DNA from: Andreprevotia chitinilytica DSM 18519
GTDB taxonomy: Bacteria; Pseudomonadota; Gammaproteobacteria; Burkholderiales; Chitinibacteraceae
Length of the DNA stretch: 64,000 bases
Reading direction: 5' to 3'
NCBI RefSeq assembly: GCF_000711875.1
Contig: NZ_JONM01000008.1
Coordinates: 62,001 to 126,000 of the forward strand
In this document: piece by piece, positions 10,530 through 15,863 of the stretch
Numbering within the stretch: position 1 is the first letter of the stretch
Layout of the letters: each line of letters begins with the position of its first letter
Notes under the pieces: generated by a model
Told to the model about the DNA's origin: nothing
Seen by the model: only the letters and a program-made list of their open reading frames with translations
Databases searched by the model: none
Program-made: the position numbers and the translations under genes

Positions 10530-11267
10530 TCATTTGATCCCGAGTACTCTGCGCAAGTCACCGGTATCCAGCACCCGGATACCCGGTGTGAGGTCGTGCA
10601 TTGTCAGCACGCAAGCCTCGGCGATTCGCTCGCTGGTCAGTGGCGCGACCGAATTCGGCAACATATAGCGGAACTGATCCAGATACAGCGCCTGAAAGCG
10701 CTTGATCCAACCGCCTTCTACCGGCTGCTGGCGGAACATGCTCGGGTGGATCTCGGTGACCTGCGTGAACGGCAGTTCGGCCAGTTGGCGGAGCAGCTCG
10801 CTGGCCGAGAGGGGCGTATGGCGCATCATTTGTACCGATGGCAACGCGGTTTGTATCAAGCAAAACCGGCTGGCCTTGGCGCTCGCAACGACATGGGCAA
10901 AGGGCAGGATGTCGGCCTCGCTTATGGCGTGCAGGCCTTCATCCCGTGCATTGGCGAGGCCAGGCGGGCCGACGCAGCAATAGACGTCATCGACCTTGGG
11001 CAGATGCAAGTGCGCGAGCTTTTCGTGATCAAGTTGCGATTGGTCTGGCGCGTGGCTGGGCAGCAGGATATGGCTGCAATGCGTGGTGCTGCTCACGATG
11101 GGTTTACTGGTGAGTACCCAAGTGTGGCGGTATTCGCGCACGAGGCGGTTGAGCATCGCTTCGCCCAAGCGATTGACCGCGCCGGCGATCAGTGCGGTGC
11201 GGCGGGTGTCGGCTTTGATGGTTGGTTCGTGCAGCGCGCCGCGCAGGTCGATGTGGGGCCGGGTCAT
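10530..11267 (-). CDS. NAD(P)-binding Rossmann-like protein (short-chain/epimerase type)
   Basis: The protein has 245 residues. A beta-alpha-beta start (TALIAGAVNRLGEAMLNRLV, near residues 22-41) resembles the dinucleotide-binding fold of HTATIP2-like atypical SDR proteins, and the later VDDVYCCVGPP and LIQTALPS also fit. The glycine-rich loop is degenerate (GAVNRLG rather than GxxGxxG), so cofactor binding is uncertain. The ATG at 11267 gives MTRPHIDLRGALHE; the frame stays open upstream, but that part would be encoded by the inverted-repeat arm at 11297-11346 and is not believed. The repeat block therefore ends 29 bases before this start codon and may supply or disturb its promoter. Confidence 0.6.
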   Translation of the reverse strand: MTRPHIDLRGALHEPTIKADTRRTALIAGAVNRLGEAMLNRLVREYRHTWVLTSKPIVSSTTHCSHILLPSHAPDQSQLDHEKLAHLHLPKVDDVYCCVGPPGLANARDEGLHAISEADILPFAHVVASAKASRFCLIQTALPSVQMMRHTPLSASELLRQLAELPFTQVTEIHPSMFRQQPVEGGWIKRFQALYLDQFRYMLPNSVAPLTSERIAEACVLTMHDLTPGIRVLDTGDLRRVLGIK

Positions 11268-11296
11268 TGGGTATTTGGAGCTTTGCTGAAAACCGG

Positions 11297-11346
11297 AAAT
11301 CTTGAACCACAGAGGACACTGAGAACACAGAGGTTCACAGAGAAAG
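11297..11346 (+). repeat. left 50-bp terminal inverted repeat of the 673-bp block
   Basis: Exact reverse complement of 11920-11969. The arm is built of ACAGAG-like motifs (CCACAGAGGACACTGAGAAC, then ACAGAGGTTCACAGAGAAAG). Confidence 0.95.
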
Positions 11347-11361
11347 CAAGAATCGGTAATA

Positions 11362-11399
11362 CGCAGGATGGATGGAGCGTAGTGTTCACCCATCCTGCG
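11362..11399. repeat. internal palindrome, left side of the block
   Basis: CGCAGGATGG (11362-11371) pairs with CCATCCTGCG (11390-11399). It sits just downstream of the small exported-protein gene (minus strand) and could also act as its transcription stop. Confidence 0.7.
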
Positions 11400-11411
11400 G
11401 GGCCCACCTGC

Positions 11412-11756
11412 TTAGAGCATTTGGATGTAGCTAACGACGCAGTAAGGGCCACTATATGTGCCAGCAATATGCACCGGTCTGTTCGTGGCTTTTGCAGCGA
11501 GCAACAAGCTAAAAATGGCTTTGGCGTTTGCTTGTTGTGTTGGCACATCTGCGCCCAGGCCATTCCAAGATAAAAGAGCTCCGGCACCACAGCTGCCTGC
11601 TGCGGTATCAACACTAAATGCCACTGCATTGGGCATGGAGTTGGGTTGAATTGCGGAGATGTTTGCACTGAGCACTTCCCAGTCATATGCCGCTGCAAAT
11701 GAGGAAGAAAAGGCTACGGCAAGGCCCAAGAGAGTTTTGGAAAGGAGTTTGGTCAT
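11412..11756 (-). CDS. small exported protein, function unknown, inside an inverted-repeat block
   Basis: The protein has 114 residues with a clear Sec signal peptide: KLLSK, a hydrophobic core GLAVAFSSSF, then AAA with cleavage probably before YDWEVL. The mature part is about 91 residues with two cysteines (Cys56 and Cys106) that could form a disulfide, and ends IAGTYSGPYCVVSYIQML. AAAGGAG-like sequence lies upstream (complement of TCCTTTCC at about 11739-11746 is inside the gene start region, so the SD is not decided). I do not recognise the family with certainty; small secreted proteins of this general shape occur in many proteobacteria. It is the only gene between the two 50-bp inverted repeats. 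Confidence 0.65.
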   Translation of the reverse strand: MTKLLSKTLLGLAVAFSSSFAAAYDWEVLSANISAIQPNSMPNAVAFSVDTAAGSCGAGALLSWNGLGADVPTQQANAKAIFSLLLAAKATNRPVHIAGTYSGPYCVVSYIQML

Positions 11757-11825
11757 TGGCTTCTCGAGTTGAGGGTTTGGTTGCTATTTATTGCTGCTGA
11801 CAAAAAAAGTCAGGAATGTACGGTG

Positions 11826-11890
11826 GGTTGAGCATAGCGATACCGGTAACCCACAGCCACCAGGAACGATGGGTATCGCTATGCTCAACC
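11826..11890. repeat. internal palindrome, right side of the block
   Basis: Perfect 19-bp arms, GGTTGAGCATAGCGATACC at 11826-11844 and its reverse complement at 11872-11890. It lies upstream of the small exported-protein gene. The GGTTGAGCATAGCGATACC type of palindrome is a common dispersed proteobacterial repeat. Confidence 0.85.
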
Positions 11891-11919
11891 ATCTACGTGT
11901 AACCGATCCCCGCCTTTGC

Positions 11920-11969
11920 CTTTCTCTGTGAACCTCTGTGTTCTCAGTGTCCTCTGTGGTTCAAGATTT
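11920..11969 (-). repeat. right 50-bp terminal inverted repeat of the 673-bp block
   Basis: Exact reverse complement of 11297-11346. It ends six bases before the stop codon of hrpA (11976). Confidence 0.95.
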
Positions 11970-11975
11970 TAGGTC

Positions 11976-14900
11976 TTACCGCCGAGTAATCTCATCCCAA
12001 GTCTTATTCAGCCGCTTGAGCGATACCGGATACGGCGTGCGTAGTTCCTGCGCGAACAGGCCGATGCGCAACTCTTCGATCATCCAGCGGAACGGCAGCA
12101 GCGGGGCGGTGTCGCGGCCTTCGCGTTGCCATTTCTCCAGCTCGGTTTCCCAGCGCTGTACCAGCTCGGCGATTTCTGCGGCGCGTTGGGCGTCGCGGGC
12201 GGGGTTTTGCACGCGCTTTTCCAGCCGTACGCGGATGGCTTTCAGGTAAATCGCCAGGCGTGGCAGTTGTTCCCACGGTGTTTTGGCGAGGAAGCCGTTG
12301 AAGACGAGTTTGCCGAGCTGTTCTTTCAGCTCATGGGACAGCGGGCCGGGTTTGTTGACCGTTTGCGTGAGTGGGAAATACTCGAACACCACTTCGGTGA
12401 GCGTGCGGATGACGGCATCGCGCACTGACGGTAGCCGCACCTTGGCGCGGCTTTTCTGGTCGTCGAATTCCTTTTTCTTGCGCGGCGGTTCGTCGTCGCC
12501 GATGAAAGCGCGGTCGCAGATGGTGGCGACGATGTCTTCCATCAGCATGTCGGCATTGCCGATGCTGCGTAGCGCAATGGCGAGCTGCTGGAAGTTCGGC
12601 ACGGATTTTTCCAGTTGCTTCACATGCTCTTTCAGTTCGAGCTGCAGCAGCCGGATCACGCCCTGCCGATGCGCTTCGGCCGCGGCGTGGGCGGTGTCGA
12701 ACAGGCGGATGGCGCAGGCGTCGTCTTCCGGCACCAGCGCTGGGTAGCCGGTGAGTTTGCGGCCTTGGCGCTTGATGGTGAGGTTGGCCGGCAGATCGCC
12801 GAAATCCCATTTGATGATGCCGGTTTTTTCGATGCCGCCATCGTCGGCTTCGTCGCGGAAGGTGAGTTGCGCGGCTTCGCCAAGCTGGGCGCGGATGGCG
12901 ACCAGATCGCGGCCGGTGGCGAGTTCCTGCCCGCCGTCATCGACGACGCGGAAGTGCATTTGCAAATGCAGCGGCAAATCGCTGGCATCGAACTCTTCGG
13001 CCGAGACGGGCTGGCCCGCGCCACGGGTGACGGCTTGGGCCAGTTGCGGCAACAGCGGCGCTTCGCGGTCGGCTTTTTCCAGATCGGTGAGCATGCGGGT
13101 GGCGAATTCCGGCACTGGCACGCACAGGCGGCGGATGGCCTTGGGCAGCGACTTGACCAGCAGGGTGATTTTTTCGCGCAGCATGCCCGGCACTAGCCAT
13201 TCGAAGGTGGCGTGGTTGACGCGGTTCAGCAGGTGCAGCGGCAGCGTGAGCGTGACGCCATCGAGCGGGTGGCCGGGTTCGAAGCGGTAAACGAGCGGTA
13301 GCTTGGCATCGGCCAGTTTGAAGAAGGCGGGGAATTGCTCTTCGGTCACGCTGGCGGCCGAATGGCTCATCAGGAAGTCACGCGTGAGGTAGAGCAGCTT
13401 CGGGTTGTCGGTTTCTGCCTTCTTGCGCCATGCCTCGAAGCTGTGACCGTTGACGATATCGGCCGGCACGATGGCGTCGAAGTAGCGGTATAGGGCTTCT
13501 TCATCCACCAGTACGTCTTGCCGGCGCGCCTTGTGCTCCAGCTCTTCCACTTCCAGCAGCAATTCGAGGTTGTGGTCGAAGAACTTGGCGTTGGTCTTGT
13601 AATTGAAGCGAACCAGTGCTTCGCGGATGAACATCTCGCGTGATTCGGCCGGGTTGATGCGGCCGTAGTGCACGCGGCGGCGGTTGACGATCGGCAGACC
13701 GTACAGCGTGACGCGCTCGCTGGCGATGACTTCAGCGCGTTCCTTCTCCCAGTGCGGGTCGAAATACTGCTTCTTGGTCAGGTGGCTGGCGAGGCGCTCC
13801 ACCCAGTCCGGCTCGATGGCTGCAACGGTGCGGCCCCACAGTTTGGTGGTTTCGACCAGCTCACCGGCGACGATCCATTTCGGCCGGCTCTTTTTCAGGC
13901 ATGAGCCGGGGAAGATGTTGAACTTGAGGCCGCGTGCGCCGAGGTATTCGTCGTTCTCCGGCTGCTTCATGCCGAGGCTGCCCAAGAGGCCGGTCATCAG
14001 TGCCTTGTGGATTTGCTCGTAGGTGCCGACGGTCTCGTTCAGCCGCCATTCCATGTCTTCGACGATATCGGTCAGCTGCCGATGCAGATCGCGCCATTCG
14101 CGCATGCGCAGGTAAGACAGGAAGCTATCGTGGCAGACACTGACCAATTGCTTGTTGGAGGTCTTCTCGTCCAGTGCACGCTCGAAGAACGTCCACAGAT
14201 GCAGGTAGGAGAGGAAATCCGATTTGTCGTCGGTGAACTTGGCCTGGGCGCGGTCGGCGGCTTCACGCGCGTCGAACGGGCGCTCGCGTGGGTCTTGCAC
14301 GGACAGGCCCGAGGCGATGATGAGGATTTCCTTCAGGCACTGGTTTTCCTGCCCGGCCAGCAACATGCGGCCCAGGCGCGGATCAACCGGCAGGCGGGCG
14401 AGTTGTTTGCCGGTGGCGGTCAGTTCGTTGTCGTCGTCGACCGCGCCGAGTTCGTGCAATTGCGCGTAGCCATCGGCGACCAGCTTGCCGGATGGCGCTT
14501 CAAGGAAAGGGAACTGATCGACCGAGCCCAATTTGAGCGCAGCCATGCGCAGGATGACAGCGGCAAGGCTGGAGCGGACGATTTCCGGGTCGGTAAAGCC
14601 GGCGCGCAGATTGAAGTCCTGCTCGGAATACAGCCGCACGCAAATACCGCTGGAGACGCGACCGCAACGGCCGGCGCGTTGGCGGGCGCTGGCCTGGCTG
14701 ATTGGCTCGACCATCAACTGCTCGACCTTGGCGCGCGGCGAATAGCGTTTGATGCGGGCGAGGCCGGAGTCGATCACGTAGCGGATGCCGGGCACGGTGA
14801 GCGAGGTTTCGGCGACGTTGGTGGCGAGCACGACGCGGCGGCCGTTGCCGGGGCGGAAGATGCGTTGCTGGTCTTCGTTGGATAAGCGAGCGAAGAGCGG

Positions 14901-15863
14901 GATGACTTCGGCGTCGCGCAGCTTGGCCTTGCGGAATTCCTCGGCGGTTTCGCGGATTTCGCGCTCGCCGGGCAGGAATACCAGCACGTCGCCGCTGCCG
15001 TCGTGCCGCCACAGGTGCTCGACCTCGCGCACGATGGCTTCTTCCATTTCGATTTCGGCATCGTCTTCGTCGCGGCTTTTCAGCTCGGCGTAGCGGACTT
15101 CCACCGGGTAGGTACGGCCGGAGACTTCCAGTACCGGCGCACCGTCGAAGTGGTTGGAGAAGCGATCCGCATCGATGGTGGCGGAGGTGATGATGACTTT
15201 CAGGTCGGGCCGCTTGGGCAGCAACTGCTTGAGATAGCCAAGCAGGAAGTCGATGTTCAGGCTGCGTTCGTGTGCCTCATCGACAATGATGGTGTCGTAG
15301 TTGGCGAGGTAACGATCGGATAGCGTTTCGGCGAGCAGGATGCCGTCGGTCATCAGCTTGATGTAGCTGTCGCCAGTGGATTTATCGGTGAAGCGCACCT
15401 TGAAGCCGACGATGCTGCCGAGCTCGGATTTGAGCTCCTGCGCGATGCGGCTGGCGACCGAACGGGCGGCGAGGCGGCGTGGCTGGGTGTGGCCGATCAG
15501 GCCGGTCACGCCGCGGCCGAGTTCGAGGCAGATCTTGGGTAGCTGGGTGGTTTTGCCGGAGCCGGTTTCGCCACAGATGATGACGACCTGGTTTTCGCTG
15601 ATCGCTTTGGCGATTTCGTCCCGGCGCTGGTTGACCGGCAGGTTGTCGTCGAATTCGGGGCGGGGCAGGCGTTCGCGGCGGCGGGCGGTTTTTTCAGCAG
15701 CGCGGGCGAGTTCGGTGTCCAGCTCGGCGAACAGGCGCTCCGCTGGCTTGCCGGTGGCGATCCGGTCTGCGAGCTGGCGTAGTTTGCGTTCCAGGCCCCA
15801 GCGGTCGCGGGCGGGAACGTGGTCGAGGCGGGTGGACAGGGTGGCAAGACTAGGGATGGACAT
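11976..15863 (-). CDS. hrpA: ATP-dependent RNA helicase HrpA (DEAH-box)
   Basis: The protein has 1295 residues, matching the roughly 1300 of E. coli HrpA. Walker A GETGSGKTT lies at 98-106 and the DEAH box IIVDEAHERSLN at 192-203, followed by SATID, the helicase C-terminal domain with QRAGRCGR, then HA2, OB-fold and the long HrpA C-terminal region (DUF3418). HrpA unwinds RNA; in bacteria it is linked to mRNA processing and to rescue of colliding ribosomes. The gene appears intact. Its 3' end abuts the right arm of the inverted-repeat block, and its 5' flank holds a palindromic element (15901-16044). Confidence 0.96.
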   Translation of the reverse strand: MSIPSLATLSTRLDHVPARDRWGLERKLRQLADRIATGKPAERLFAELDTELARAAEKTARRRERLPRPEFDDNLPVNQRRDEIAKAISENQVVIICGETGSGKTTQLPKICLELGRGVTGLIGHTQPRRLAARSVASRIAQELKSELGSIVGFKVRFTDKSTGDSYIKLMTDGILLAETLSDRYLANYDTIIVDEAHERSLNIDFLLGYLKQLLPKRPDLKVIITSATIDADRFSNHFDGAPVLEVSGRTYPVEVRYAELKSRDEDDAEIEMEEAIVREVEHLWRHDGSGDVLVFLPGEREIRETAEEFRKAKLRDAEVIPLFARLSNEDQQRIFRPGNGRRVVLATNVAETSLTVPGIRYVIDSGLARIKRYSPRAKVEQLMVEPISQASARQRAGRCGRVSSGICVRLYSEQDFNLRAGFTDPEIVRSSLAAVILRMAALKLGSVDQFPFLEAPSGKLVADGYAQLHELGAVDDDNELTATGKQLARLPVDPRLGRMLLAGQENQCLKEILIIASGLSVQDPRERPFDAREAADRAQAKFTDDKSDFLSYLHLWTFFERALDEKTSNKQLVSVCHDSFLSYLRMREWRDLHRQLTDIVEDMEWRLNETVGTYEQIHKALMTGLLGSLGMKQPENDEYLGARGLKFNIFPGSCLKKSRPKWIVAGELVETTKLWGRTVAAIEPDWVERLASHLTKKQYFDPHWEKERAEVIASERVTLYGLPIVNRRRVHYGRINPAESREMFIREALVRFNYKTNAKFFDHNLELLLEVEELEHKARRQDVLVDEEALYRYFDAIVPADIVNGHSFEAWRKKAETDNPKLLYLTRDFLMSHSAASVTEEQFPAFFKLADAKLPLVYRFEPGHPLDGVTLTLPLHLLNRVNHATFEWLVPGMLREKITLLVKSLPKAIRRLCVPVPEFATRMLTDLEKADREAPLLPQLAQAVTRGAGQPVSAEEFDASDLPLHLQMHFRVVDDGGQELATGRDLVAIRAQLGEAAQLTFRDEADDGGIEKTGIIKWDFGDLPANLTIKRQGRKLTGYPALVPEDDACAIRLFDTAHAAAEAHRQGVIRLLQLELKEHVKQLEKSVPNFQQLAIALRSIGNADMLMEDIVATICDRAFIGDDEPPRKKKEFDDQKSRAKVRLPSVRDAVIRTLTEVVFEYFPLTQTVNKPGPLSHELKEQLGKLVFNGFLAKTPWEQLPRLAIYLKAIRVRLEKRVQNPARDAQRAAEIAELVQRWETELEKWQREGRDTAPLLPFRWMIEELRIGLFAQELRTPYPVSLKRLNKTWDEITRR

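Follow-up and report, generated by a model that had tools for sequence, protein, structure and literature searches.

MITEs are short elements that have inverted ends, occur in many intergenic copies and hold no transposase inside. Another known system is that of the REP/REPIN elements with RAYT, including the GTAG super-family, and the nesting of REP dimers in longer palindromes is also on record (excerpts of PMC3733652 and PMC3116915, the nesting in the former). TIRtrons, according to the same excerpts, are tyrosine-transposase genes located between long terminal inverted repeats, scattered copies of which are also found (PMC3733652).

The locus analyzed here is a block flanked by inverted arms, located between the genes of an hrpA-like helicase and a Rossmann protein in a window of 64,000 nucleotides, i.e., the whole stretch of DNA under study. 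The terminal inverted repeats are common to many copies, as in MITEs; the family differs from MITEs in the lack of a detectable target-site duplication among 28 elements, whose true ends are uncertain, and in the interiors of the copies of one related genome (G005), which look unrelated by eye. The two inner palindromes of the block resemble GTAG-type REPs in opposed orientation, a likeness that is confined to the inner parts: the block as a whole is not one REP dimer, its 50-bp CACAGAG arms are not REPs, and a gene lies inside. No RAYT or TIRYT gene is present in the block, the three PF01797 matches of the genome being located elsewhere and without arms.

A further counterpart was found in loci of the GxxExxY protein (TIGR04256/PF13366), a small protein with a PD-(D/E)XK nuclease fold, whose gene lies between these arms in related genera. 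The block shares with these loci the inverted CRCNRAG arrays and the outer end typical of the bacterial family, but it has no GxxExxY gene, and the gene it does enclose is unrelated, with no Pfam or NCBIfam match. GxxExxY loci resemble the TIRtrons of the excerpted source in having one small gene between inverted repeats as well as repeat-only copies. They differ from them in that the enclosed gene belongs to a PD-(D/E)XK nuclease family instead of coding for an HUH transposase, and in that the repeats are heptamer arrays. A search of 5.39 million open papers retrieved neither a description of the arms or of GxxExxY as a mobile unit nor a name in print for the arm repeat.

The block, its passenger and its neighbors

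The arms are exact reverse complements over 50 bp, as reported in an earlier note on this DNA, and the inverted match stretches to 58 nt (95%) when few mismatches are tolerated (Table 1). Our analysis also recovered the two inner palindromes, the gene for a 114-residue protein, predicted to be exported (hereafter the passenger), and the spacings of that note, namely 29 bases from one arm to the start of the Rossmann gene (11267) and six from the other arm to the end of the hrpA frame (11976). The hrpA, passenger and Rossmann genes all lie on the minus strand, and the block sits between co-directional neighbors.

Table 1. Features of the block and of its immediate surroundings (positions in the window).
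Feature	Position	Strand	Remarks
Left arm	11289..11346		Exact core 11297-11346; CTTGAACC, then CACAGAG-type heptamers; among 40 arm matches in the source genome
Right arm	11920..11977		Reverse complement of left arm; core 11920-11969; outer end touches the hrpA stop codon
Inner stem ATCGGTAATACGCAGGATGG	11352..11371		Imperfect mirror at 11889-11909, GGATCGGTTACACGTAGATGG on the opposite strand; by eye
REP-B hairpin, single, diverged, GTAG-type	11362..11399		13-nt stem, 92%
REP-B dimer, a pair of oppositely oriented REP units	11826..11890		19-nt stem, 100%
Passenger gene, predicted exported protein, 114 codons, two cysteines	11412..11756	-	Signal-like N-terminus by eye
Rossmann-protein gene, downstream neighbor	10530..11267	-	No Pfam family above cut-off
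hrpA-like helicase gene, upstream neighbor	11976..15863	-	Name from the earlier note

The earlier note had also raised the question of empty sites at this junction. The Rossmann gene was present in five of the 43 genomes searched, with hrpA adjacent in all five, and in the four other genomes keeping the gene pair both block and arms are missing (4/4). The distance from the hrpA stop to the codons of a conserved HxDLRGA motif near the start of the Rossmann protein is 16 bp in G002, 14 in G018, 175 in G026 and 240 in G001, so that two of the four relatives leave no room for the block. Judging from these block-free junctions, the block would most simply be an addition in the source lineage; the Rossmann protein is 57-59% identical to those of the four relatives, a distance too great for the exact insertion point to be read. 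Two further observations concern these genomes. The gap of about 240 bp in the sister species G001 (L012) appears by eye to carry a separate palindrome unrelated to the arms, and the Rossmann-hrpA stretch of G026 appears near both ends of contig C1 (L013, L015), perhaps as an untrimmed overlap of a circular chromosome.

The passenger protein matched no family in Pfam or NCBIfam and no PDB sequence, and its one PHROG match had an E-value of 0.24. There is thus no known transposase inside the block, in agreement with the earlier note, and the possibility that the passenger is the arms' own enzyme was rejected on the same grounds. No homologue was detected in the 99 other relatives searched, leaving the source genome (G000) alone among 100, and a second copy was found neither in these genomes nor in 369 genomes of the class. 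Plasmids, phages and viral contigs gave no match; a genome contig collection, from which the source genome itself is possibly excluded, gave no close one. Among the 369 class genomes 38 had a match at E ≤ 0.05. One besides the source genome was clear (G672; a 123-codon ORF with 35% identity, E 3e-6 and both cysteines in common), and the remaining matches ranged from E 0.0017 to 0.05. At 50%, a value reached by 1.5% of passenger-sized stretches here, the GC content of the passenger is below the 60% of the window, and its GC3 is 48% vs. 76% and 80% in the neighboring genes, which suggests an outside origin. A structural model of the passenger, of low confidence (pLDDT 63), gave weak matches, with a best E of 0.016 and a TM of about 0.5, to OB-fold B subunits of AB5 toxins, perhaps by chance, and this fold reading was set aside as evidence.

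These data bear on the view that the block is an old regulatory hairpin, i.e., a fixed intergenic terminator or mRNA stabilizer containing a native gene. The co-directional neighbors would suit such a role, and many REPs are plausibly transcribed (PMC3733652, in part). Nevertheless, the absence of the block from all four relatives with the gene pair, two of them without room for it, the atypical GC and GC3 of the passenger and the occurrence of arms at 25 other examined places of the genome argue against it, and we consider this view highly improbable.

Arms and REP repeats in the source genome

The source genome (5.15 Mb, 61 contigs) holds 40 arm matches at E ≤ 0.01, so the arms are not a product of chance; they are a dispersed inverted-repeat family. 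Profile analysis of 26 arm places revealed 19 inverted pairs and seven single arms. Including the arms, the length is 127-278 bp in 18 of the 19 pairs; the block, at 671 bp, is the one long copy. At 23 of the 26 places a REP-A dimer lies between or beside the arms, and the other three hold a REP-C (GTAGGGCGGGTTAGC..), a REP-A truncated as judged by eye, and the block. REP-A reads TGTAGGAGCGAGCTTGCTCGCGAT.., and REP-B, a name of our own, reads ..GGATGGGTTGAGC..GATACCCATC in the block. Better copies of REP-B than the single hairpin of the block exist in the same genome (C13:115446, C35:335, C8:208710 and C16:140). A candidate for a second gene-bearing arm pair (L093) proved to be a lone arm next to a 449-codon ORF. 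At another place (L064, C19:41969) one arm has a run of six CACAGAGGG units opposite a short partner, which means that a change in arm length can be confined to one side.

Arm identity within and between pairs was 0.954 and 0.926 for four pairs of the source genome, 0.864 and 0.857 for ten pairs of G005, and 0.805 and 0.813 for eight pairs of G025. Conversion keeping the arms alike was therefore rejected, as the within-pair identity barely differs from the between-pair one, and the exact arms of the block only suggest a young copy. Comparison of the 28 elements with swapped flanks gave no clear excess of target-site duplications, flank matches of at least five bases occurring in 11% vs. 6% and the means being 1.93 vs. 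1.95, with the true ends uncertain.

REP-A widely outnumbers the arms, with 156 candidate places, of which 40 were scored. Of the three PF01797 matches in the genome two are above cut-off, and one (L104 1623-2063; C1:135122-135562) is a 146-codon RAYT-type gene lying between opposed REP-A units without arms, likely the mobilizer of the many REP-A dimers. Taken with the abundance of REP-A, this armless locus indicates that arms and REPs are separate families, nested here. A motif search found no arms at any of the three PF01797 loci, and RAYT was thus rejected as the source of the arms.

A related possibility is a REPtron-like cargo unit, in which the passenger would have been brought into an arm pair by a RAYT tyrosine transposase that acts on REP-B. 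It would account for the position of the passenger between opposed REP-B repeats, with the dimer on one side, the hairpin on the other and a mirrored inner stem, and the genome does contain PF01797 genes, including the one flanked by inverted REP-A. However, the motif search detected REP-B at none of the three PF01797 loci, one of which is cut by a contig end, and the passenger has no second copy, so that we regard this scenario as distinctly unlikely. Other palindromes were seen by eye mid-way in arm pairs of G008 (L108), G010 (L086) and G220 (L128), and small repeats may commonly insert at the center of an arm pair.

GxxExxY genes and inverted arrays in the family and beyond

Arms were detected at E ≤ 1e-4 in eight of the 43 genomes: the source genome, G005 and G015 (genus g4), G008, G017 and G025 (g7), G010 (g9), and G055, which lies outside the family and gave one weak match. 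The two other members of the source genus had none at this threshold. The arm pairs read in G005 (eight) and G025 (three) contain no REP-A and have outer ends matching those of the source genome, and it therefore seems that the arms multiply without REPs. Arms bracket a GxxExxY gene in several genomes of the family, a finding that goes beyond those of the earlier note; a 351-bp arm pair of G017 encloses a fragment of this gene. The unit at the GxxExxY gene of G010, CACCAAG, differs by eye from the CACAGAG of its arms.

PF13366 was found in six of the 43 relatives, and these are the same six family members that have arms besides the source genome. Across 27 family genomes, six have both arms and PF13366, one (the source genome) has arms alone, none has PF13366 alone and 20 have neither (Fisher p 2.4e-5, uncorrected for kinship); at least 16 further family members (G027-G042) stand outside the arm and PF13366 counts. 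The two also vary together within genera: in g4 G023 lacks both while G005 and G015 have both, and in g9 G019 lacks both while G010 has both. PF13366 has no match in the source genome, hence the link of the block to GxxExxY rests on common ends. When a profile was built from five arms of the source genome alone, it picked up GxxExxY locus ends in G025 (E 4.6e-14 and 1.4e-11), G005 (3e-10 and 5e-7) and G017 (8e-13 and 1e-3).

One junction, whose genes we take to be prfB and lysS from the likeness of their proteins, was compared across genomes. Neither arms nor GxxExxY are found there in G023, G001, G002, G018, G010 and G019, while in G005 and G025 an open GxxExxY frame lies between arms. The GxxExxY gene is broken in G008 and G015, partial in G017 and a remnant, by eye, in G042. 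G034 (L275), which like G042 was hand-picked from g7 for this comparison, has an open 119-codon GxxExxY frame with weak arms; by our reading the catalytic D63 of the family is replaced by N in this frame, and it is perhaps an inactive copy, judging from the residue change. In the source genome (L270 983-1438, C12) no GxxExxY remnant was seen at this junction. The site is occupied by another small ORF of 151 codons, directly after the prfB-like gene and with no clear arm, which may resemble lysozyme inhibitors.

The GxxExxY model was predicted with a pLDDT of 95. Its fold is nearest, by weak matches with a best E of 2e-3 and a TM of about 0.5, to those of the Cas4-like SSO0001 and lambda-type exonucleases; there was no fold match at E 0.001 or below, and a sequence comparison retrieved no solved relative. 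D63, E73 and K75 are invariant in 40 aligned sequences, a set of residues that a PD-(D/E)XK site requires.

Beyond the family, PF13366 occurs in 13 of 20 genomes with arms (21 rows, or 18 genes after merging of split rows). A clear inverted pair was seen by eye at ten of the 18 genes (L167, L169, L170, L172, L173, L174 and L176-L179), and at the others the repeats were one-sided, of another unit or nested. The units differ among GxxExxY loci (CACAGAG, CACGAAG, CGCAAAG, CACCAAG, CGCAGAT); those at the GxxExxY genes of G220 differ, by eye, from its CACAGAG arms. In the phylum sample six of the 13 genomes with an exact triple heptamer show no PF13366 match.

A sample chosen by protein alone comprised the best 80 of at least 586 GxxExxY matches, i.e., the closest relatives of one arm-flanked protein and not a random set. 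These loci span Planctomycetes, Chloroflexi, Acidobacteria, Verrucomicrobia, Bacteroidota, Proteobacteria, Cyanobacteria, archaea and others, and 77 had enough flank to be usable. When the left flank was compared with the reverse complement of the right flank, the median score for these best matches was 40, vs. 18 for swapped partners. Scores of at least 50 were reached by 24 of the 77 loci vs. 0.33% of 1522 swapped pairs, and scores of at least 34 by 47 vs. 6.3%, the other 30 of this best-80 sample being lower. In direct orientation within a locus the median among these best matches was 18, yet 13 of 77 scored at least 50, so both layouts of repeats occur at some loci.

An array required, within 150 bp, at least two CRCNRAG units at a spacing of 8-11 bp. 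At the 77 loci from the best 80 matches such arrays were found on the left in 52 cases forward and 14 reverse, and on the right in 15 forward and 58 reverse, compared with 7 and 6 of 768 distant control windows per strand (about 1%). Inverted arrays facing the gene flank 44 of these 77 best-match loci, with the opposite layout at eight and no pair by this rule at 33. The eight opposite layouts and the 13 direct matches indicate that repeats of all layouts are enriched at GxxExxY loci. At the 44 paired loci the nearest array lies at a median of 39.5 bp from the conserved core of the protein on the left and of 28.5 bp on the right; in 28 of them neither distance exceeds 60 bp. A crude longest-frame rule, applied to 70 loci, puts both neighbors in the direction of the gene at 41 loci and in the opposite one at eight, with 21 mixed. 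Eight plasmid records contain a GxxExxY relative; of the three read, two have arms on both sides and one on one side. Phage records gave no match at E 1e-5.

It could be argued that the arm palindromes are a mere target in which GxxExxY genes, REP dimers and the passenger were inserted separately, with nothing moving the arms themselves. The centers do vary, with REP-A, REP-B and REP-C in the source genome and the other palindromes noted by eye at single loci of G008, G010 and G220, and REP dimers within longer palindromes are recorded for A. variabilis and H. neapolitanus (PMC3733652, in part). On the other hand, the REP-A-free copies of G005 and G025 keep the outer ends of the source-genome type, and arms with different heptamers lie close to GxxExxY genes in many phyla. 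Such an accretion therefore seems unlikely to us.

Origin of the block and its meaning

In our view the block more likely than not represents a non-autonomous copy of an arm element of the GxxExxY type, inserted at this junction, with nested REPs and a passenger gene inside. GxxExxY loci would be the putative autonomous elements, as their ends match those of the arms. The arms are inverted arrays whose 7-bp unit is CACAGAG here and CRCNRAG in general, and a fairly constant outer end precedes them in this bacterial family (AAACC..AAATCTTGAACC). In the gene-bearing form a GxxExxY gene lies close to the arms, in the majority of cases reading with its neighbors; in the mechanism we propose, the nuclease would recognize the arms or their hairpin and drive insertion of the whole as a unit. 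Loss of the gene would leave arms-only pairs scattered at intergenic sites, and the source genome would be a case in which arm copies persist without it, nearly all of them holding a REP dimer. The REPs may have entered at the center of the arm pairs because this center can form a hairpin loop, and the passenger could have arrived with, or after, the REP-B repeats. Several results speak against this reading: target-site duplications show no clear excess, the source genome has no PF13366 match, six of the 13 genomes with the triple heptamer lack one as well, G010 and G220 have by eye different units at GxxExxY genes and in arms, and the best-80 sample, which is not random, includes loci with no inverted pair and loci with direct or opposite layouts.

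The earlier note had offered two readings, and both hold in part. That of a non-autonomous element mobilizing a cargo gene agrees with the dispersed arms, the block-free junctions and the lack of a known transposase, while its mobilization part finds neither a second copy of the passenger nor a target-site duplication. That of a fusion of widespread repeats around a gene agrees with the inner palindromes, whose repeat has further copies in the genome. The block itself would be a non-autonomous inverted-repeat element of a known kind, and the novel part would be the wider GxxExxY class. As a tentative proposal, to which we give slightly less than an even chance, GxxExxY genes with inverted CRCNRAG arrays could constitute a novel class of mobile or selfish elements with a single gene, based on a small PD-(D/E)XK nuclease without a transposase, widespread in bacteria and present in archaea. 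The CACAGAG, CACGGAG, CGCAGAG and CACGAAG intergenic repeats would then be gene-less copies, and the block an arm pair whose nuclease gene was replaced by that of an exported protein.

The association ties an intergenic repeat to a named protein family that has no known function. The block shows further that an unrelated gene can lie between such arms, and in the copies of the source genome one repeat family is nested in another. If the nuclease does act on the arms, the GxxExxY locus would be a minimal mobile unit without a transposase, and the GxxExxY family would gain a testable role.
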